DNA of 34,009 bases from a virus, in the IMG/VR virus record IMGVR_UViG_3300009073_000010, positions 1-34,009 of that record; one strand, written 5' to 3'. The notes under the pieces are model-generated. The model worked only from the letters and a program-made list of their open reading frames with translations, searched no databases and was not told the origin of the DNA. Position 1 is the first letter of the stretch. Each line of letters starts with the position of its first letter. Below, in pieces: positions 1,179 through 33,776 of the stretch. Position numbers and translations under genes: made by a program.

Positions 1179-2879
1179 ATGACTAAAAACAGAGAGGAAA
1201 TGACGACTGAGGAGTTGCAGGATTTAATAGAAGAGCGTCGGCAAGAGAAAGCTAATGAAGAGGCGTTAGTGGGGTCGGGTGTTATTGAGATATTGGAAAA
1301 GCTTAATGAGCTTGATATTGAGTTTGATGAGATATTGACTGAAACGGGCAATGCTGAGGTTTTTGTAAAATCGTTTGATGATGAGGTGCGATACGTCATT
1401 GAGTTAAAACAATGGGCATATTGGGCTAATCAGAAATGGAACCTCAATACAGACTCTGAGATAGAGAGAAAATATAAATCGGTTATTGATTCGATTAAAA
1501 AATATCGGTACGAATTGGAAGGTATGAACGTATCACTCCCTGCTGTCGCTAAGGGCGATGACTCGCCGTTAGCAGAGCGTACTAGGGTTGCTAAGGCGAT
1601 GCTACAAAAGATGCTCAAGCGTGTCAGAGCATGGATTACAGCATCATCTAATAAAGGGACTAAGGAGCGCTCTATTGATGTGGCGGCGACATTGAGTGGT
1701 ATACCGATTCATTACAATGAGTTTGATCGTAAGGGACAATTTTTTGGTGTGGCAAATGGTGTGATTGATTTGCGAGATGGCAAATTTATTAAAGATAAGC
1801 CGGAATACATGTTGTTAAAATCATCTGAGGTGGAGTATGAGGATGGTGCTGAGTGTCCAATATGGCAACAGACATTGCTTGAGATCATGGAAGGTGATGA
1901 GACGAAAGTTGATCTGTTGCAACAGATTGCAGGCAGTTGCCTGGTCGGTAATTCAAAAGAGAAAATGTTCTTTTTTTGTGGTGATGGTAGCAATGGTAAA
2001 TCGACATTTGCGAAAGTTTTAGAGCCGATTTTAGGTAAAGCTGGCGATGGTGGTTATAAAGCGTCGGTAAGTCCTGAGGTGATCACAGGTGCCTCTACAT
2101 CAGAAAAGCAATATGCTCTAGCAATGTTGAAAGGTGTTCGCATGATCATCATGAACGAGTTGGGTAGTTCTGATGGTCGAAAGTCTAGCAATGCGTTGGA
2201 CGATACAATCGTGAAGCGGATGGTTGATTCGGATGAGGGGATGGCTGCCAGGCCAATTCGTGGTGAGCCGTTTGAATTGACGTGCGTGGCAACGATGATT
2301 CTTAATACTAATTACGTGCCGTCGGTTGCTTGTACTGATGGTGGTATATGGCGGCGTTTGGTATTGCTGAATTTCAATCGAGTTTTCAGTGATGCTGAGA
2401 AAGATCGTGAGTTGATCAGTAAGAAATTAACGTTTGAGCAATCAGGGATTCTAAATTGGTGCATTGCAGGTGCGATTGCATACATGGCTAATGGTCAACA
2501 GTTTGATATTCCTAAAGTTGTGAAGGTAGATACTGCAATGTGGCGAAGTGGTGAGGATAAGTTAGGAACGTTCATTGACTCTGCAATCGTTGAGGATGGT
2601 AGAGCTACAATCAAGTTAACCGACTTTTTGAGTCAATATACTGAGTGGTGTGTAGAGCGACGGTTGTATTCAAGTGGTGACAAGGAATTAAAAAAGCAAT
2701 TGGTGCAGCGTGGTATAGATGTGTCCAATGCGTACAGTGGCAATCTTAATCGTATACGAGGATGGAAGTTTCGTAAGGGCCACATTGGTGAGATCTACAA
2801 TGATATTGATGAGGATGGTGGTAGTCGCCGCCTGGACGGCGGTAATGGTGCAGATGAGGATAATATCCTGCAATTTTGA
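1179..2879 (+). CDS. Phage P4 alpha/D5-type SF3 replicative helicase
   Basis: A 566-residue superfamily 3 DNA helicase expected to unwind the phage origin with the upstream primase. The visible order is an N-terminal helical region (1-160), the D5_N-like part (about 165-260, including NGVIDLRDG), Walker A GDGSNGKST (268-276), Walker B MIIMNE (322-327), the SF3 motif C region ATMILNTNYVP (371-381) and the arginine-finger segment WRRL (391-394). The C-terminal 120 residues could bind DNA, as in P4 alpha. The ATG at 1179 follows GGGAGG at 9-nt spacing. The helicase is not fused to the primase as in P4 alpha but encoded just downstream. A terminator follows at 2911. Confidence 0.93.
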   Translation: MTKNREEMTTEELQDLIEERRQEKANEEALVGSGVIEILEKLNELDIEFDEILTETGNAEVFVKSFDDEVRYVIELKQWAYWANQKWNLNTDSEIERKYKSVIDSIKKYRYELEGMNVSLPAVAKGDDSPLAERTRVAKAMLQKMLKRVRAWITASSNKGTKERSIDVAATLSGIPIHYNEFDRKGQFFGVANGVIDLRDGKFIKDKPEYMLLKSSEVEYEDGAECPIWQQTLLEIMEGDETKVDLLQQIAGSCLVGNSKEKMFFFCGDGSNGKSTFAKVLEPILGKAGDGGYKASVSPEVITGASTSEKQYALAMLKGVRMIIMNELGSSDGRKSSNALDDTIVKRMVDSDEGMAARPIRGEPFELTCVATMILNTNYVPSVACTDGGIWRRLVLLNFNRVFSDAEKDRELISKKLTFEQSGILNWCIAGAIAYMANGQQFDIPKVVKVDTAMWRSGEDKLGTFIDSAIVEDGRATIKLTDFLSQYTEWCVERRLYSSGDKELKKQLVQRGIDVSNAYSGNLNRIRGWKFRKGHIGEIYNDIDEDGGSRRLDGGNGADEDNILQF

Positions 2880-2910
2880 TGGATATTGTGTTAAATTTGA
2901 TGGTAAGACA

Positions 2911-2932
2911 AGAGCCCTTTTTTGGGCTTTTT
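2911..2932 (+). terminator. Intrinsic terminator of the early/replication operon
   Basis: AGAGCCC (2911-2917) and GGGCTTT (2924-2930) form a 7-bp stem with one G-U pair around a T6 loop. A run of five T (2928-2932) overlaps the end of the stem. It lies 31 bp after the helicase stop and points in the direction of early transcription. Confidence 0.85.
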
Positions 2933-2964
2933 GTCGTTATCTGAGATGTTGATTTGAGATAGCT

Positions 2965-3075
2965 CTATTTCGTCTATATAATATATAAAAAAAATAGATA
3001 AAATAGATAAAATAGACGTTATTTAATAGTATATATGTAGAGATATTTTATTTTTTTAATATATATATATTTGTA
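2965..3075. other. AT-rich tract with three 9-bp iterons: candidate replication origin
   Basis: About 110 bp consist almost wholly of A and T. Inside are three head-to-tail copies of AAAATAGAT/C (2991-2999, 3000-3008, 3009-3017), a CGTCTAT/ATAGACG inverted pair (2971-2977 and 3012-3018), and TA runs at 3059-3070. The P4-type helicase family initiates at repeats close to its own gene, so an unwinding region here would make sense. No DnaA box was found. The origin call is inference. Confidence 0.45.
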
Positions 3076-3182
3076 CTGTAGGGTTATATGCCAGAAAACG
3101 GTCTATTTCCTCATTATTAAGATGATTTAGCTGTTGTGCATGTGCAGTGGATTGAACCCACCACCACCGAAAATTTCAACAA

Positions 3183-3242
3183 AAGCCATCCTAAGCTATC
3201 CTAAGCTATCCTAAGCTATCCTAAGCTATCCTGAGCCATCCA
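3183..3242 (+). repeat. Six tandem decamers AAGC(T/C)ATCCT
   Basis: Units start at 3183, 3193, 3203, 3213, 3223 and 3233. Four are identical, and the first and last differ at one to three positions. The 10-bp period keeps every unit on about the same helix face, as expected for cooperative protein binding. No reading frame is maintained across them. Confidence 0.92.
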
Positions 3243-3260
3243 TCACCACAAGAGCGCGCC

Positions 3261-3306
3261 TGGCAGGGACTATGCTCAGAGCATGGCAGGGACTATGCTC
3301 AGAGCA
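3261..3306 (+). repeat. Two 23-bp direct repeats, each with palindrome ATGCTCAGAGCAT
   Basis: Bases 3261-3283 and 3284-3306 are identical. Each carries the palindrome ATGCTC-A-GAGCAT (3272-3284 and 3295-3307). The leading part TGGCAGGGACTAT recurs at 3321-3333, followed by two TATCTTTGAC decamers (3331-3350). The palindrome returns at 4604, 4663 and 4698. These look like operators for a dimeric regulator. Confidence 0.85.
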
Positions 3307-3365
3307 TGGCAGCAGCGCAATGGCAGGGACTATCTTTGACTATCTTTGACTGTGTTATTTTAAAA

Positions 3366-3402
3366 TGTCATCCTAAATGACATAATTGCATCCTAAATGA
3401 CA
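3366..3402. promoter_or_regulatory. Operator-like palindrome TGTCAT-N5-ATGACA and partial copy
   Basis: TGTCAT (3366-3371) and ATGACA (3377-3382) are perfect arms around CCTAA. A second copy (GCATCCTAAATGACAT, 3388-3403) keeps the centre and right arm. The pair sits some 320-350 bp upstream of the first sigma-54 promoter, a distance from which an enhancer-binding activator could act. The binding protein is unknown. Confidence 0.5.
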
Positions 3403-3406
3403 TACT

Positions 3407-3421
3407 TTCCTCTGAGGAAAC
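3407..3421. promoter_or_regulatory. Palindrome TTTCCTC-T-GAGGAAA
   Basis: A perfect 7-bp-arm inverted repeat. The same two half-sites, in reverse order, form the 16-bp palindrome at 33538-33553 upstream of an early gene. One regulator may therefore bind both places. Confidence 0.5.
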
Positions 3422-3635
3422 ATTATTTCACGCCTTGAAACAAAATTTTTCAATATTGTCAATTCAAATCCCGCGTATTTGCGGACCACTTCTCAAAATA
3501 AAATAATACCTTACAGCGCTGCGGTCCTTGTCACAAACCCCCTATAATGCCAACAATCTCACAAAAATAACATTATTTCCAACACTCTTATATCGTTCTG
3601 TGCTACGACTAATTGTCATCGGCAATTTCGGATAC

Positions 3636-3655
3636 TACTGTAAATCCATACAGCA
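3636..3655. promoter_or_regulatory. LexA (SOS) box 1
   Basis: TACTGTAAATCCATACAGCA has the CTGT-N8-ACAG core of the gammaproteobacterial LexA site. Only the outer right flank departs from the ideal palindrome. It lies 26 bp from box 2. Confidence 0.8.
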
Positions 3656-3661
3656 ATCAAC

Positions 3662-3681
3662 TACTGTAAATCCATACAGTA
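3662..3681. promoter_or_regulatory. LexA (SOS) box 2
   Basis: TACTGTAAATCCATACAGTA is a palindrome with 7-bp arms around AATCCA. By my count it matches 17 of 20 positions of the E. coli LexA consensus (TACTG, then TA five times, then CAGTA). It lies just upstream of the sigma-54 promoter array. Confidence 0.85.
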
Positions 3682-3717
3682 TTCTCTTGTAAAAATAACA
3701 TGGGCAATTTTATAATG

Positions 3718-3735
3718 TTGGCACGATTCTTGCAT
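3718..3735 (+). promoter_or_regulatory. Sigma-54 (RpoN) promoter, copy 1
   Basis: TTGGCACGATTCTTGCAT is a full match to the RpoN consensus (TGGCACG-N4-TTGC), with GG at 3720-3721 and GC at 3732-3733 separated by exactly 10 bases. The predicted start is near 3745, transcribing rightward. Confidence 0.8.
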
Positions 3736-3764
3736 GTATTTTTGTCATGGGCAATTTTACAATC

Positions 3765-3782
3765 TTGGCACGATTCTTGCAT
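3765..3782 (+). promoter_or_regulatory. Sigma-54 (RpoN) promoter, copy 2
   Basis: The same 18 bases as copy 1, 47 bp further on, with the same GG-N10-GC geometry. All bases needed for RpoN recognition are intact. Confidence 0.8.
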
Positions 3783-3810
3783 GTATTTTGTCATGGGCAA
3801 TTTTACAATC

Positions 3811-3828
3811 TTGGCACGATTCTTGCAT
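3811..3828 (+). promoter_or_regulatory. Sigma-54 (RpoN) promoter, copy 3
   Basis: Third identical copy, 46 bp after the second. A LexA box lies 29 bp downstream (3857), where bound LexA could block transcripts from all three promoters. Confidence 0.8.
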
Positions 3829-3856
3829 GTATTTTGTCATGGGCAAAATCAGGTCG

Positions 3857-3876
3857 TACTGTAAATCCATACAGTA
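3857..3876. promoter_or_regulatory. LexA (SOS) box 3
   Basis: Identical 20-mer to box 2 (TACTGTAAATCCATACAGTA). It is placed downstream of the three sigma-54 promoters, so the array is bracketed by LexA sites. Confidence 0.85.
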
Positions 3877-3879
3877 CTA

Positions 3880-4572
3880 TTACTGGCTATGTTATTTTTT
3901 TTAATCCAGCCCTCCCACCGCCTATAATTATACAGCATTTTTCAGATTATTCTCTGAACTGTCTCACATAGTCAATCATCCGACCATCCCCACCATTTTA
4001 TGACCATTTTATTTTTACTAGCAAGAATCATACCAACTATCTCCCAACTATGTGACAAGGACCGCAAATATCAGAGAGAGTCTACACACTGTGATCAACC
4101 AATCAAAAATAACATTATCTTAACCATTACAGATCATCCACATTATTTCGATCACCTCACAAACTCGCCAGAAATATTCTGCACCTTTTCGAGATAGACT
4201 ATAGATAGTTTTATAGATACCTACCCTCGCAGCGCTGCTAAACCCTTGATTTATATAGAAAAATCCCGTTCTCTCTAAACATAGAGCAAGAACAGAAACC
4301 TATCCAAAATAACATGATCTCAATAATGTCAAATGATTACGTCACACTTTTAGATAATTGATGGGGATGTGATTTAGATCATGTTATGACTATTTTATTT
4401 TACTATTTTATTTTGATAAGTGGTTTACATTTTGCCAAAGTGTGACAAGGACTACAAGATTGCATAGTGAGACGTGGGACACCCCCCAACCGAGACCCAC
4501 CCCACAGAAAAAATCTTGCACAATGCCGCTGAGACACCTGGCCATATTCAGCCCCCGCAGCGCTGCACAACC
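3880..4572. other. Non-coding stretch of shuffled repeat blocks
   Basis: I see no credible gene here. Short frames on either strand lack ribosome binding sites and protein-like composition. The stretch holds recurring blocks. TATGAC(C/T)ATTTTATTTT occurs at 3999 and 4385. TGTGACAAGGAC occurs at 4051 and 4441, reversed at 3524-3535, and again at 6266. CAAAATAACAT-type elements occur at 4104 and 4304. CAGCGCTG occurs near 4232 and 4557, and also at 3514. A CRP-like half palindrome (TGTGATTTAGATCATG) lies near 4366. Confidence 0.8.
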
Positions 4573-4724
4573 CAAAATAACATAGTACAAGCATGGTCAA
4601 AGCATGCTCTGAGCATAATCAAAATAACATAATACAACCATGGTCAATAACATAATACAACCATGATCTGAGCATAGTCCCCCACCATAATACAAGCGTG
4701 CTCTCAGCATAATCAAAATAACAC
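4573..4724 (+). repeat. Degenerate array of CAAAATAACATARTACAASCATG units with ATGCTCTGAGCAT operators
   Basis: Units begin at 4573, 4620 and 4646, with a terminal CAAAATAACAC at 4714. Between them are the palindrome ATGCTCTGAGCAT (4604-4616) and degraded forms (4663-4675, 4698-4710). The same palindrome occurs twice at 3272-3307, so both edges of the non-coding region carry the operator. A role in regulation, partition or origin control is inference. Confidence 0.75.
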
Positions 4725-4787
4725 GCTCTTTTGCCACGCTCTGCTGCCAGGTATCCTCCTCTCCTCTCCCCTCCTCTCAGTCCCTAA

Positions 4788-4811
4788 ATAATCTCTATAC
4801 ATGGAGATTAT
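4788..4811 (+). promoter_or_regulatory. Hairpin that can hide the ribosome binding site of the 4816 gene
   Basis: ATAATCTC (4788-4795) and GAGATTAT (4804-4811) are perfect 8-bp arms with an 8-base loop. The Shine-Dalgarno GGAG (4803-4806) is part of the right arm. In RNA the hairpin would lower initiation. As DNA it could also be an operator. Confidence 0.5.
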
Positions 4812-4815
4812 ACCG

Positions 4816-5097
4816 ATGCCCAAACGCTCGAAATACAGCAAAAAAGACAGGATTTTTAAATCATTGCCTAAACAGTTCAGAAAACCGCCAGCAGATCAGA
4901 CCTGCCCACGAAGCGGTAAGAGACTGTTCGTGAGTGCTAAAGCGGCCACACGCTTTGCAGAAGCCATTAACCGTGCATATCAGAACCCGTACCTGTGCGT
5001 CCACTGCGAGCATTACCATCTCACCTCGCTACCACAGCAAGCAAAAACAACACCACCAGCCCCACCAGACTCTCAGGACCACCACAAATCACAATAA
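4816..5097 (+). CDS. Small zinc-binding phage protein (C-x-x-S-G-K ... C-x-x-C-x-x-Y-H-L-T-S)
   Basis: A 93-residue protein with a basic, Ser/Lys-rich N-terminus, then CPRSGKRLF (about 34-42), a short helix with an alternating pattern, and PYLCVHCEHYHLTS (about 62-75). The two cysteine pairs with the trailing YHLTS are the signature of small zinc-binding proteins common in phages and plasmids. Their function is unknown to me. The tail is Pro/Gln/His-rich and looks disordered. I chose ATG 4816 because GGAG precedes it by nine bases. The in-frame ATG at 4801 has no such site. It is the first gene after the non-coding region and could be driven by elements there. Confidence 0.65.
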   Translation: MPKRSKYSKKDRIFKSLPKQFRKPPADQTCPRSGKRLFVSAKAATRFAEAINRAYQNPYLCVHCEHYHLTSLPQQAKTTPPAPPDSQDHHKSQ

Positions 5098-6386: not shown

Positions 6387-6677
6387 ATGTCAAAATCACC
6401 TACACCAACTCATCGAAAGCCATATGTAGCGCGGTCCTCAGCACTATCTACAATTTCCACCACCCCGACCTATCTACGATTTTCTCTACACCTCCCAACA
6501 GACCAACAGCCACAGCAGCCACAGCACAGGCACAATAACGCCACCCACAGCGCGCTGTGCACTATCTATACCATTGCATCCGCTACCACAAATCTATCTA
6601 CACTCCCGCCAAATAATATTACAGTTACGCCACATCTCGCCGCTGTCCACCTGGCAGCAGCGGGAGGTGCATCATGA
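6387..6677 (+). CDS. Doubtful 96-codon frame overlapping the integrase start
   Basis: ATG 6387 to TGA 6677, with the stop overlapping the integrase ATG as ATGA, which usually hints at coupled translation. Against it, there is no good ribosome binding site and the product is a low-complexity Thr/Pro/His/Ser/Gln string, as the C-rich DNA would give by chance. It may be untranslated leader of the integrase. Confidence 0.25.
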   Translation: MSKSPTPTHRKPYVARSSALSTISTTPTYLRFSLHLPTDQQPQQPQHRHNNATHSALCTIYTIASATTNLSTLPPNNITVTPHLAAVHLAAAGGAS

Positions 6678-7828
6678 GCGTCATCAAAAAAGCCAACTCA
6701 AAGAATTGGTACATCAAATTTACCGAAAATGGTGTCCCATACGAGCGTAGCTCAGGCACTCGAATCAAAGCGGAAGCCGAGGCTATAGAGCGGCAGCTCA
6801 GAACAAAACTGAGGGATGAGCGTCACAATCCCACAGCATCGGAAATCACTCTCAAAGACACGATCACAGCGTATCTTGAAGATCACACGCCACCTGTACT
6901 AAGCGCCATCTATCACCAACAGATGAGCGGCGTGTGTGATCGAATTCAAGGCACTCTCTCACCGTCAAATGCTACACGTTATCTACACGATCCAAGCAAC
7001 CCAAACCAACCCACCGCTGTCACTGTGCAGCCGCTGCAAATCACTAATATGAGTGAGATCAATGCCGCAACGCTCACAGCACACTACAGACAACGAGTAC
7101 GAGAGGGATATAAAGCCTCCACGATCCACGACGAATTTCAGATCATCAAGAGACTCATGAATTACGCTGCTGGCGATGGCAAAAATTCACCACACTCTAA
7201 GATGACGGGTTTCCCGACAATAAAAATCGGCCCTGGACGGCAGCGTGTTCTAACCGATGGCGAAATCAGAGATATCCGAGCAGCTATTACAACGACACTC
7301 CATGTCGATCTTTTTGACATGCTGAATTACACAGGCGCAAGATATATGGATATCTGCAAAATGACGTGGGCTAATATCGACGAGGCAGAAGACATCATCA
7401 CGCTCAAGCACTACAAGACAAAGAGAGCAATCGAAATACACATGTTCCCCGAAGTGGCGGCTATCCTCAAACGCCGCAAGGCAGCACCCAATGCACACTC
7501 AAAATGGGTATTTCAAAATCAAAAAAATGACAACCACCTCCACCACTGCTTGTACTGGTGGCGCAGCGCATGCAGTAAGACTGATGTAAATTCCGATGAA
7601 AAATTAGACACTGCATTAAACCCGCAGAACCATGCAGAACCAGCCGTGCCGCATCATCTCAGACATACGTTCGCCAATCGTCTGCACCGTGCGGGATTCA
7701 CACAAGAGGAAATACAGACCATGATGGGCCATAACGACCCAAAGTCGAGTCGCAGATACTCTAAACCATATGATCGAAATATCGTGATCGGTAAAAAAGC
7801 AGAGTCGGTATTTACTGATCTATTCTAG
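6674..7828 (+). CDS. int: Tyrosine-family site-specific integrase
   Basis: A 384-residue tyrosine recombinase that would integrate the phage at an attachment site. The N-terminal arm-binding region is about 1-55, the core-binding SAM-like domain about 60-175, and the catalytic domain about 190-384. The catalytic set is visible: R223 (TGARYMD), K248 or K250 in the beta-hairpin, H327-x-x-R330 (HHLRH), H353 (MMGH) and nucleophile Y362 (SSRRYSK). GGGAGG lies six bases before ATG 6674. It is followed by a terminator shared with the converging late operon. No excisionase gene was recognised nearby. The coding strand is C-rich, unlike the G-rich early genes, which suggests a separate history or the opposite replication strand. 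Confidence 0.95.
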   Translation: MSVIKKANSKNWYIKFTENGVPYERSSGTRIKAEAEAIERQLRTKLRDERHNPTASEITLKDTITAYLEDHTPPVLSAIYHQQMSGVCDRIQGTLSPSNATRYLHDPSNPNQPTAVTVQPLQITNMSEINAATLTAHYRQRVREGYKASTIHDEFQIIKRLMNYAAGDGKNSPHSKMTGFPTIKIGPGRQRVLTDGEIRDIRAAITTTLHVDLFDMLNYTGARYMDICKMTWANIDEAEDIITLKHYKTKRAIEIHMFPEVAAILKRRKAAPNAHSKWVFQNQKNDNHLHHCLYWWRSACSKTDVNSDEKLDTALNPQNHAEPAVPHHLRHTFANRLHRAGFTQEEIQTMMGHNDPKSSRRYSKPYDRNIVIGKKAESVFTDLF

Positions 7829-15500: not shown

Positions 15501-16900
15501 CCACCAACATCGGATGCGGGAATAGTCAAACCATAGTAAGCACAATCGGTATATTTGTTAGCAGTCTTTCCAACGATCAGATTATAAGATGCAAGAGAAA
15601 ATTTATTAGTGTGTTTTTTATTTCTATGAGTACTATCGTCAGCAGGATTCTCTACGAAATTTTGTGCAACTGAAACGTATACGGCACCCGCACCGCCGCC
15701 GCTTGCACCCATGTCCTGCTTTTTAACATTGCGTGTTTCGGTAACTTGTACTAAGCGTTTTATTCGTATACGCCATGATTGATCCGCTGCTGTGGGCCTA
15801 TCAATTCTGTAAGTTTGAGCCATTGGTTTTAACACCATACTCTCTTGCCGCCTTAACCATTTCGGGCTTGTCTGCCATGCTCCGTTATTAACAGATACCT
15901 GCACTTCAAACGCGGTTTGGCTGGTATAGTATTTCTCTCCGACACTATAAAGCCCTTCCCATGCAAGATTGAGTTTTACTGCATTATTAGCAGCAGGAAT
16001 ATTGAGCACTTTCCATGTGCCAGCATCTAGCTCTATATTTGCATTTATAAGCTGCGATGATTCAGTAAATCCAGCTATAGAATTATTATTAGATGCTGTT
16101 GAACCATCTCTAAAATGTACTTCGGTTTGACTATCCTGAAAATTCGACACACTAATATCATTAACGTACACACTGTTTTCTAATAGCTCATCTGTGAGCA
16201 CACCGTTAAGCGTTGGTCCTGCAATAGTACCCTCTCCGATGATATGCACTGAACGCGAAATATGCTCAATCTTAGAGTCTAGAATATCATCACCATTGTC
16301 ATTTTGCAGCACCTCATCACTCGATACCTCAAGATCTACAATAGTTGATTGCGCGCGAGTTGGACCGCCATAAATCAATGGAATTCGAGACCCAGCATTT
16401 GCATTATTGAGACCACTTGAGAATATTGATTGATCGTTTTCATCGGTATTTTGTGGTTGATCAGCAAGCAGAGCGGTTGCTCCCGCTAAAGCCAAATTCG
16501 CACCCGTTGAGAGCAGTGCCGTTTGTACTGTCGCCTGCGACAGACCAAGCATGCCTCCGCCTGGCACATAAAACGATAACGCAATAAGAGCAGTACCAAA
16601 TACTAATTTTCCTACTTTGCTCTTATCTGCTGTCAATGATTCATACAAATGTATCTGTGTTTCGTTATCCGAAAAAGGGATCATCAGATCATCAAGATCT
16701 ACAATATTCTCATCTTTCAAATCACCGACATAAACAAGATATTCACCAGCTGCAATATCATCGAGCAGCGATGGCTCATCTATGGCAATGCCTGTTAACA
16801 ATAGATCTATACGACTAGCGGGAAAAGATTTTTTCGCACCATATTTTGATTTTAATTGACCGTAAAAATGTACGTCTCTTACTATTAAATTATCACTCAC
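12536..16900 (-). CDS. Lambda gpJ-like tail tip / host-specificity protein
   Basis: 1454 residues from ATG 16900, close to the size of lambda J (1132) and its longer relatives. The N-terminal 100 residues form a small domain, followed by a Gly/Ala-rich hydrophobic segment (about 105-140), which is usual in J-type proteins. Then come IPLIYGGPTRAQS (about 172-184) and the central hub region with NPALILLDLIRNQRYAHG. Fibronectin-III-like beta repeats run through about 770-1100. The C-terminal end is beta-rich and could bind the tail fibre or receptor. It overlaps the K-like gene by eight bases. The lambda I homologue that usually separates K and J is absent. Confidence 0.92.
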   Translation of the reverse strand: MSDNLIVRDVHFYGQLKSKYGAKKSFPASRIDLLLTGIAIDEPSLLDDIAAGEYLVYVGDLKDENIVDLDDLMIPFSDNETQIHLYESLTADKSKVGKLVFGTALIALSFYVPGGGMLGLSQATVQTALLSTGANLALAGATALLADQPQNTDENDQSIFSSGLNNANAGSRIPLIYGGPTRAQSTIVDLEVSSDEVLQNDNGDDILDSKIEHISRSVHIIGEGTIAGPTLNGVLTDELLENSVYVNDISVSNFQDSQTEVHFRDGSTASNNNSIAGFTESSQLINANIELDAGTWKVLNIPAANNAVKLNLAWEGLYSVGEKYYTSQTAFEVQVSVNNGAWQTSPKWLRRQESMVLKPMAQTYRIDRPTAADQSWRIRIKRLVQVTETRNVKKQDMGASGGGAGAVYVSVAQNFVENPADDSTHRNKKHTNKFSLASYNLIVGKTANKYTDCAYYGLTIPASDVGGNLRDIWFKVWGLEIPLPNNYFINSSADSRFSTAAFTGMTKKGVSKNPALILLDLIRNQRYAHGKLVEDYQIDYGAFMNAARWCDNLVDNIDGTGQERRFEFSGQLSTALNSYKMMAAVASSFYGKILIQNGVISVVWDDDNTDSIAIIDNNDVLNSNFSYSSVPDTSRHTQVVGKWRDPAENFELSSVVANHADIATRGLLTNSVELIGCQRLSQAQRHVQWIMESNNRNTELVEWQMPITGALYKVGQIVTIRDENNRFDATVYDVKFKITGVDISSDGVNYKFQGLSVDEQKVAAYKVLNIDPVSGLVAGDIKVGGANVSAVQNLQITESTIDRVNSRVLICEWDAPSSNPQFLQHYVVLHNSPTGHQERFTVTQERIQLNAQDEGLHSVTVFPVSVTSANGPKETTSLFIEDVATSGSALNNPLNLRLVTGSSSNTIFTSKDLHVRFDDPDNIDNEAANLSHYLVEFKKQNGDLLHSTNAVGNRASFLYEQNRASNDGIAERVIVVDVTAIDVLGRSSTSTSRTFSNPAPAGLSGFSVTSVHLNSVEWIVNASTETDVEGNRVRQADNSSMSNSKIVYDGKNTSGSITVSQGEDLYFQCGAYDSYSDSVNWSSVKNVTTINNILNSSYIFQGFRVFVENGKFVVTGKTITYKAPDGTISDVLFDNTQATPNNRWIDANYNEFTRRYYYFDQNVGSNGGMQVSFNATDVFASDGSRINVAVTEGGEISTGERIGMPIQHRDSLGARVVYAEHIVADESVIENSLQVGGQAVINTINIKSGDVSKQEVLKWHGDTLNNSGNVDKLDMILYTSGHPSYSNLTWRYSAGSSNVIHSNAAQHYNKFPYALFYIPPTGDSEPVTVMMEWQMHVEAERASSAANIRYKPSMSFQYNRRFAIDNNDGTYTVPSQDTTWDSLTESLFNFNLSRENYYSSNYISGKFLIQSQGEELIRIRMEAAPYDMQNLVMQSNFKQLNFSGMRFTATAILR

Positions 16901-31620: not shown

Positions 31621-31847
31621 CAACGAATAATACAACTCGCAGTGCGCAAGGCAATCTACGTAATAACGTGACTAGCAAGCTGCGGCGGTTAGTACACAAG
31701 GAGATGCTTGAGCATTACAAGCGGGCTGATGAGGCGCAATACAACACTCTCTATGAGTCGATACGTGCTGAGCATGTGCAAGCGTTCGAGGATGAGTATG
31801 AGCGTGAGCTGGGTAGTTTAGATGCTGCTGATGGTGATCGCTCTTGA
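31617..31847 (+). CDS. Small helical protein, first gene of the early operon
   Basis: 76 residues. ATG 31617 follows AGAGGAG at six bases. A Ser/Thr/Asn-rich N-terminus, then charged helices with KLRRLVHKEMLEHYKRA and YNTLYESIRAEHVQAFEDEYE. The layout (basic helix, then L-Y-x-x-I-R helix) recalls the proteins at 33282 and 33588, so it may be a distant paralogue. Basic and acidic halves suggest DNA or protein binding. No family is named. Confidence 0.65.
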   Translation: MTTNNTTRSAQGNLRNNVTSKLRRLVHKEMLEHYKRADEAQYNTLYESIRAEHVQAFEDEYERELGSLDAADGDRS

Positions 31848-32950
31848 GTACTGAGATGCCTGGGCGTGATGGTGGTGATGGTGCTGAGATTTTCGCAAAA
31901 TATGATCTCAGTGCTGATCATGTTGAGTCTGCGATAGAGATACCGACAAGACCACCTGAGGGCGTAGTAATCGTAGTGGGAGCCTCAGGCAGTGGCAAAT
32001 CGACGATTCTGAGATCGTGGGGGATGGTTGAGACGGTTTTGGATCGTGATGTGCCCATATGGACATTGTTTGAGTCGGGGTTGGATGCTGAGCACTGGCT
32101 GACAGTAGCAGGATTGCGCTCTATACCGACATGGCGTCGAACTCTTAATACAGTTTCTAACGGTGAGTGTCATCGTGCCGAGGTTGCTGTTGCTCTGAGT
32201 CGCGGCTCTGAGTTTATAGATGAGTTTACGAGTTTGGTAGATCGTCAAACGGCGCGAGCATTGTGTCACTCTATTAATAGAGCTGGTCTGAGTAATCTAG
32301 TAGTAGCGACATGTCATGTGGATGTGTGCGAGTACCTACGAGCTGATCATATCTATGATGTTGATGCGGGTGAGTGGTTGGATGCTTCGGCAAGGAGGTG
32401 CCTTCGGCGATGGCATGAACCGTTGTCTCTCAAGATCCGACCGTGTGATGCGCAAGCGGTTTGGCCGAGTTTCAGCCGACATCATTATCTAGATAGCGCT
32501 ATTAATAAATCGGCAAATGCCTGGACTGCGCTGATGGATGGTAAAGCGGTTGCTTTTTTAGCAGTGATCGCAATGCCCCATCGCAATATTAAAAATGGTT
32601 GGCGGGGGCATCGTTTGGTTGTATTGCCTGAGTATCAAGGCATGGGCATCGGCAATGCTTTTCATGATGCCGTAGCGGGATTGATCGTAGAGAGTGGTTG
32701 TCGATATTTTTCTAAGGCAGCTAATGTTGCTGTGAGTATGCACCATGAAAATTCGATTTTTTGGAGGCCAACATCTAAGAATCGCAAACTACGAACGGAC
32801 TATAAGAGCGAGCGTGGTGCCGAATCGAAAGAGACTACTGCGCATATGCTCAAGCATGCAGAGAGGGTATGCACATCGCATGAGTTTGTAATACCGAGTG
32901 ATGAGGAGTTTGAGGAGTACATGTTAACCATAGGAGTAGATAAGACATGA
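31844..32950 (+). CDS. ABC-type ATPase fused to a GNAT/Mom-like acyltransferase (COG2401-like)
   Basis: 368 residues. The N-terminal ABC ATPase has Walker A GASGSGKST (46-54), a signature-like SNGECHRAEVA (105-115), Walker B FIDE (124-127) and the H-loop ATCH (155-158). The C-terminal GNAT domain (about 205-320) has the acyl-CoA loop RLVVLPEYQGMGIG (257-270). This fusion is known from archaea and phages (COG2401). Its GNAT part resembles Mu Mom, which acylates adenine in DNA, so a DNA-modifying role against host restriction is the best inference, but is unproven. The start is TTG overlapping the previous stop (TTGA). An ATG at 31856 is the alternative. Confidence 0.85.
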   Translation: MSTEMPGRDGGDGAEIFAKYDLSADHVESAIEIPTRPPEGVVIVVGASGSGKSTILRSWGMVETVLDRDVPIWTLFESGLDAEHWLTVAGLRSIPTWRRTLNTVSNGECHRAEVAVALSRGSEFIDEFTSLVDRQTARALCHSINRAGLSNLVVATCHVDVCEYLRADHIYDVDAGEWLDASARRCLRRWHEPLSLKIRPCDAQAVWPSFSRHHYLDSAINKSANAWTALMDGKAVAFLAVIAMPHRNIKNGWRGHRLVVLPEYQGMGIGNAFHDAVAGLIVESGCRYFSKAANVAVSMHHENSIFWRPTSKNRKLRTDYKSERGAESKETTAHMLKHAERVCTSHEFVIPSDEEFEEYMLTIGVDKT

Positions 32951-33281: not shown

Positions 33282-33485
33282 ATGCCAAAAATTATTCAGT
33301 ATATACAGAGCGATAAGACAACGAAATACAAACGCAATTATGCACAACGCAAGCAGCGGGCGAGTGGATATCTGTGGCGGGTGATGAAGGAGCAGCATCC
33401 CGATTTATTCAAAAGTATTATAGATGATTTTAATGCTGAGATCGGTGTTGATGATGAGAAAGTGTCAAAGGATGGGTTGTTATAA
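33282..33485 (+). CDS. Small basic helical protein, paralogue of the 33588 product
   Basis: 67 residues. ATG 33282 follows AGGAG at eight bases. It shares with the 33588 product the pattern Y-A-x-R-x-Q-R, a middle helix, and then (K/R)E(Q/E)H-x-x-L-(F/Y)-K-x-I. The leaders are also alike (ATAGGAGATAATTAA here, ATAGGAGTTAATTAA there), so the two genes look like a duplication. Function unknown. A small DNA-binding regulator would fit. Confidence 0.7.
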   Translation: MPKIIQYIQSDKTTKYKRNYAQRKQRASGYLWRVMKEQHPDLFKSIIDDFNAEIGVDDEKVSKDGLL

Positions 33486-33587: not shown

Positions 33588-33776
33588 ATGAGCAATTACA
33601 AATATCAAGATCAAACTAAGATGCCGAGTTATGCAAAGCGTCTGCAACGCTCAAAGATTGAGATGAGAGTACTCAAGCAGTTGCGCGAAGAGCATAGCGG
33701 TCTATACAAGCGGATTCGTGCAGGTGTGATCAAGGAGTTTGATGTGGAGAGACAGCAGGAGGGAGAGGTTTCATGA
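33588..33776 (+). CDS. Small basic helical protein, paralogue of the 33282 product
   Basis: 62 residues. AGGAG lies ten bases before ATG 33588. YAKRLQRSKIEMRVLKQL is followed by REEHSGLYKRIRAGVIKEFD. Its stop overlaps the primase ATG (ATGA at 33773-33776), so it is translationally tied to replication. It may help load or regulate the primase, or act on the palindrome in front of it. No family is recognised. Confidence 0.7.
   Translation: MSNYKYQDQTKMPSYAKRLQRSKIEMRVLKQLREEHSGLYKRIRAGVIKEFDVERQQEGEVS

Follow-up and report, generated by a model that had tools for sequence, protein, structure and literature searches.

The locus at 3636-3876 raises the question of why a phage should hold LexA boxes and sigma-54 promoter elements side by side in noncoding DNA. 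We analysed it within a window of 34,009 nucleotides, by which we mean the whole stretch of viral DNA examined. The phage genome is circular, with a 123-bp terminal repeat at the window ends and therefore a unique length of 33,886 bp. Its rightward early block comprises two small proteins also found in the relative L033, a junction-spanning protein and a D5-type primase-helicase; a 1.9-kb noncoding region, small genes and a tyrosine integrase come next, and the structural genes run leftward. The features that bear on the question are:

1179-2879, plus strand: D5_N/DUF5906 primase-helicase upstream of the noncoding region (profile match; 61% identical relative in L033)
2880-4800: noncoding region holding the cluster (61 11-mers present at least three times, Markov mean 0.005)
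3272-3307 and 4604: two copies of the palindrome ATGCTC-N-GAGCAT, with an imperfect one at 4663
3613-3625, plus strand: TTGTCATSGGCAA element, first of four (others at 3742, 3788 and 3834)
3636-3655: LexA box 1, TACTGTAAATCCATACAGCA (CTGT-N8-ACAG match; 18-bp core shared with sites upstream of SRAP genes)
3662-3681: LexA box 2, TACTGTAAATCCATACAGTA (CTGT-N8-ACAG match; perfect 7-bp arms)
3687-3716, plus strand: predicted sigma-70-like promoter, TTGTAA-18-TATAAT (10/12 consensus match)
3699-3846, plus strand: 46-bp tandem repeat in 3.2 copies, bearing the sigma-54 sites (repeat analysis)
3718-3734, plus strand: sigma-54 -24/-12 element 1, TTGGCACGATTCTTGCA (perfect match)
3765-3781, plus strand: sigma-54 -24/-12 element 2, TTGGCACGATTCTTGCA (perfect match)
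3811-3827, plus strand: sigma-54 -24/-12 element 3, TTGGCACGATTCTTGCA (perfect match)
3857-3876: LexA box 3, TACTGTAAATCCATACAGTA (CTGT-N8-ACAG match)
4020-4036, minus strand: degenerate fourth sigma-54-like element, TTGGTATGATTCTTGCT (weaker match)
4801-5097, plus strand: 98-aa protein, function not assigned, first gene downstream of the noncoding region
6674-7828, plus strand: tyrosine integrase (PF00589)

The first-pass annotation had placed CTGT-N8-ACAG boxes at 3636, 3662 and 3857, bracketing the promoters, and had called two of them identical. Both points were confirmed: the boxes at 3662-3681 and 3857-3876 have the same sequence, and two boxes lie upstream of the sigma-54 array with one 29 bp downstream of its last site. 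The window contains four CTGT-N8-ACAG matches, a number never reached in dinucleotide shuffles (mean 0.5), and three of the four fall within 241 bp; the fourth, at 16528, lies inside a 1454-aa gene and lacks the internal letters of LexA sites. Two of the boxes match the palindrome TACTGT-N8-ACAGTA, the gamma/beta-proteobacterial type, perfectly and one has a single mismatch. Boxes 1 and 3 also resemble each other in the DNA upstream (83% over 41 bp), so that the copies are only partly independent. The 18-bp core, TACTGTAAATCCATACAG, is present in 28 other viral stretches, in nine of which it lies directly upstream of the same type of gene, encoding SRAP (SOS response-associated peptidase; assignment confirmed by Pfam for L012). 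This placement in nine viral contigs strongly suggests that the sequence of the window boxes is used as an SOS box, and on sequence grounds it is very probable that the boxes are genuine LexA operators.

The three perfect sigma-54 elements fit YTGGCACG-N4-TTGCW, with GG at -24 and GC at -12. Because they lie in the 46-bp tandem repeat they amount, within this genome taken by itself, to little more than one independent event, and the identity of two of the three repeat units indicates that the copies are recent duplicates. If the third site is a promoter, box 3 would occupy +19 to +38, counted by the -24/-12 convention. The sigma-70-like promoter, a prediction by consensus match of a kind whose total count is not above that in shuffles, lies in the gap separating LexA box 2 from the first sigma-54 site, with box 2 ending 5 bp before the predicted -35 (TTGTAA); by the same consensus-based prediction no LexA box in the window overlaps a -35 or -10. 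About 900-970 bp of noncoding DNA separate the sigma-54 array from the next gene, with no plus-strand terminator predicted between 3880 and 4801. In the Rfam search no family reached its gathering score.

The integrase, from which lysogeny had originally been deduced, is present (PF00589), and the accompanying statement that no CI-like or Cro-like gene had been recognised also stood: none was found in the window, with no HTH_3 match and no NCBIfam repressor among the small genes, several of which have no assignment. The two small early proteins were considered as helix-turn-helix (HTH) repressors and rejected, their models, built from shallow alignments, being two-helix hairpins. No sigma-54 activator gene scored over the cut-off in 19 records, namely the window and other array-bearing records; an activator may be supplied by the host. 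Tyrosine integrases were absent from all 18 whole array-bearing records, several of them with both motifs, in a test confined to the tyrosine type and to records that may be incomplete. The window phage is temperate (integrase-bearing), unlike the other records tested, and the combination of LexA and sigma-54 sites is, by this count, not mainly a lysogeny switch. L033, the sole relative of the primase found in IMG/VR and the closest relative of the phage, retains the primase and an AT-rich, repeat-bearing stretch and has neither the LexA nor the sigma-54 motif. The integrase search in IMG/VR found no relatives, and the window DNA had no match among isolated phages or E. coli genomes.

The combination of LexA and sigma-54 sites at one locus had been thought novel; it proved instead to recur in about ten other unrelated phage families. 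We scanned a viral collection for pairs, fixing 21 bases and allowing 31 gap lengths; expected counts for scans of this collection are analytic, and for the pairs about one chance match per scan is expected if it holds about 60 Gb (our own estimate). The order with the sigma-54 site first occurred in nine contigs, representing three noncoding families and one coding chance match, and the reverse order in eleven contigs from seven families, one of them weak; the pairs in L040 and L171 were set aside as chance or weak. Five tandem LexA boxes precede the sigma-54 site in L174, L176 and L179. Three related 90-kb phages (L169, L175 and L178) combine DnaA boxes with one LexA box and one sigma-54 site; among the three the N4 spacer of the sigma-54 site and several linkers vary, but the contact letters of sigma-54 are conserved, as are the DnaA boxes and the LexA box. 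In the isolated Pseudoalteromonas phage J2-1, whose host is known, a sigma-54-like site accompanies twin LexA boxes (MF988720.1, about 466-612). The geometry of the pairs varies, from 6-32 bp upstream to 12-45 bp downstream.

These pairs belong to a wider class of site arrays. Two perfect sigma-54 elements on one strand, 20-50 bp apart, were found in at least 120 viral stretches. The arrays (L043-L122 in IMG/VR) lie in noncoding DNA of unrelated phages, contain up to ten or more sites and have little common sequence between families. At the unfixed positions of 175 distinct sites among the matches listed, C or T precedes TGG in 82% and A or T follows TTGC in 83%, as sigma-54 is known to prefer. 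The sigma-54 triple pattern is present in ten of the retrieved viral loci; bacterial and archaeal genomes totalling 257 Gb gave five matches, all simple tandem repeats. Among the matches listed, sites occur on both strands in 28 of the 66 array families, and 34 head-to-head pairs are no more than 12 bp apart, often abutting. An RNA hairpin as the reason for such inverted pairs was rejected, since one N4 spacer of a pair is not the complement of the other. LexA triplets were found in 52 viral contigs, and letters outside those fixed in the search mark about 20 families as genuinely of LexA type, with three to five boxes in a row; in these related arrays the unfixed letters (TA before CTGT, A/T after) are those of the LexA consensus. 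Many of the 52 were excluded as other repeats, often coding (CTGTCAG...). Rows of three to five LexA-consensus boxes in phage noncoding DNA were seen in L174, L181, L205, L220, L228, L190 and others, and L220 combines five LexA boxes with several Fur-like sites.

We tested the association blind and in both directions, with around 60 sigma-54 array families and around 20 LexA array families. Near the sigma-54 arrays of the 60 families, among the matches listed, DnaA boxes occurred 8 times (0.65 expected), CTCACTAAC 10 times (0.30 expected), Fur half-sites 9 times (1.83 expected) and LexA boxes 4 times (0.53 expected), the LexA enrichment being modest and the weakest of these associations. Near the LexA arrays of the 20 families, sigma-54 sites occurred 4 times against 0.19 expected. 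TetR-like sites are also enriched in these clusters, and no enrichment was seen near sigma-54 arrays for CRP sites, FNR sites or LexA sites of the alpha or Firmicute type. Control patterns, reversed or rearranged, mostly fell near expectation, though the same-letter palindrome TGTC-N8-GACA was high (3 versus 0.41). By crude gene calling, and among the matches listed, sigma-54 sites point with rather than against the next gene in a ratio of 142:88, and one-strand arrays in a ratio of 17:14; the arrays lie in divergent rather than convergent intergenic regions at 18:4, again among the matches listed. The weak orientation, the head-to-head overlap, the failure to find a phage activator and the variable distance and side of LexA relative to sigma-54 argue against the arrays being plain promoters.

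We therefore favour, as an evenly balanced judgement, a reading in which 3636-3876 is the core of a cluster of host-regulator sites that acts at least partly as a decoy. The cluster would present high-affinity sites for host LexA (three boxes) and for sigma-54 RNA polymerase (three perfect, one weak), and would be one member of a class, spread across many unrelated phages, that also includes DnaA, Fur and TetR-like sites. Its most probable main role would be competition: once many genome copies are present, their sites would bind host LexA and sigma-54 polymerase, the latter forming stable, silent closed complexes in the absence of an activator, and this binding could shift the host SOS and sigma-54 programmes to the benefit of the phage. 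In a single-copy prophage the LexA boxes could additionally shut off local transcription, and a decoy can coexist with control gated by LexA. E. coli has about a thousand LexA molecules, against which three boxes per genome are few, so titration of LexA would be partial. Head-to-head overlap would bar polymerase from filling all sigma-54 sites, a poor design for a pure sink, and the preference for divergent intergenic regions, as promoters show, also speaks against a pure decoy. Against any decoy stand the temperate nature of the window phage and the lack of both motifs in its closest relative. The general form of the proposal, that noncoding, virus-specific arrays of consensus sites for several master regulators of the host (sigma-54 polymerase, LexA, Fur, DnaA and others) serve many phages as decoys that reprogramme the infected host, we advance tentatively, at somewhat short of even confidence.

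LexA on the flanking boxes could instead block the sigma-54 promoters and the sigma-70-like promoter at 3687-3716, by a roadblock at box 3 and at the enhancer region through boxes 1 and 2, so that a rightward transcript or RNA would stay silent until the DNA is damaged, with host LexA replacing a phage repressor. Such LexA-gated transcription would fit the bracketing of the promoters, the position of box 3 at +19 to +38 of promoter 3, the 5 bp between box 2 and TTGTAA-18-TATAAT, the lack of a plus-strand terminator prediction from 3880 to 4801 and the failure to find a repressor gene in the window; in L099 a LexA box appears to overlap a sigma-70-like -35 before a gene, and GIL01 and CTX phage offer precedents (PMC4551915). 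Against it stand some 900 bp of noncoding DNA between array and next gene, the failure to find a phage-encoded sigma-54 activator, similar clusters in 18 records without a tyrosine integrase and the widely variable LexA/sigma-54 geometry; we consider it the main rival, less probable than the decoy. LexA possibly serves as prophage repressor in the window phage; this does not explain the class.

We judge it improbable that the noncoding region is mainly a replication origin, with the LexA and sigma-54 sites helping to control replication, for instance through transcriptional activation or local DNA structure. Located after the primase-helicase gene, the region has many repeats and includes an AT-rich stretch (2960-3065), and GC skew changes sign at about 3 kb; DnaA boxes moreover accompany the clusters of the three 90-kb phages. 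However, the window region has no DnaA box, L033 combines a primase and an AT-rich, repeat-bearing stretch with neither motif, and sites for several factors call for another reason. Still less probable, and in our view very unlikely, is that the boxes are operators of another dimeric regulator, a phage repressor or a sigma-54 enhancer-binding protein, that resemble LexA sites. Boxes 1 and 2 are placed where sigma-54 enhancers usually lie, but the identical sequence precedes SRAP genes, related arrays have LexA-type letters at unforced positions, and the searches for an activator and an HTH repressor found none.

A natural parallel to the preferred decoy reading is datA, a DnaA titration locus whose DNA sites lower the free regulator. 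Synthetic transcription-factor decoys alter expression in E. coli (PMC7826281). The proposed likeness is that the phage clusters would similarly lower free regulator; they differ in being phage-borne and in bringing sites for several host regulators together in a single noncoding cluster. The lysogenic promoter P1 of GIL01 is repressed by host LexA, which acts through boxes within that promoter and requires phage gp7 (PMC4551915). GIL01 and the CTX phage of Vibrio cholerae resemble the window in having host LexA boxes inside a phage regulatory region, but no sigma-54 sites are reported there, whereas the window boxes flank such sites; both phages are temperate, whereas clusters related to that of the window occur in records without a tyrosine integrase. 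Ordinary sigma-54 promoters share perfect YTGGCACG-N4-TTGCW elements with the phage arrays, which differ in reaching ten or more sites, frequently abutting and spread over both strands, in their weak orientation to genes and in having no phage activator gene that we could find. The open-access literature (subscription journals and preprints being outside its scope) describes synthetic decoys and the control of GIL01 and other prophages by LexA, but no such arrays were found in it, and within that literature the multi-regulator array recurrent across phages appears to be a new kind of phage element, unless it turns out to be a LexA-gated promoter and no more. If the arrays are decoys, phages would be able to disturb the host's control of stress, nitrogen, motility, iron and replication without using a protein, by a means readable straight from sequence; if they are control regions, phages would be wired to several host signals at one locus. 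On either reading the open-access literature appears not to have described a DNA element that is virus-specific and recurrent.

Several further observations concern the arrays and the window itself. The operator-like motif CTCACTAAC/GTTAGTGAG lies near sigma-54 arrays in L049, L056, L057, L075, L102 and L116, and in L196 LexA boxes alternate with ACTAAGACTTAGTGAGTA repeats. In the window, cumulative GC skew peaks at about 3 kb, though plus-strand genes continue to 7.8 kb, which suggests an origin or terminus near the noncoding region. The noncoding region contains AAATAACAT seven times on either strand (3565, 3693, 3889, 4107, 4307, 4575 and 4622), its core AAAATAACA in nine copies, and copies of GCAGCGCTGC and TGTGACAAGGAC; these repeats are possibly operators or origin repeats. 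The two small early proteins (33282-33485 and 33588-33776), modelled from shallow alignments as two-helix hairpins, are related to each other and conserved in L033 (39% and 57%). The protein encoded at 31844-32950 combines a P-loop ATPase-like N-terminus with a GNAT acetyltransferase-like domain (PF00583, phrog_11143) and may be the product of a DNA-modification or similar gene.
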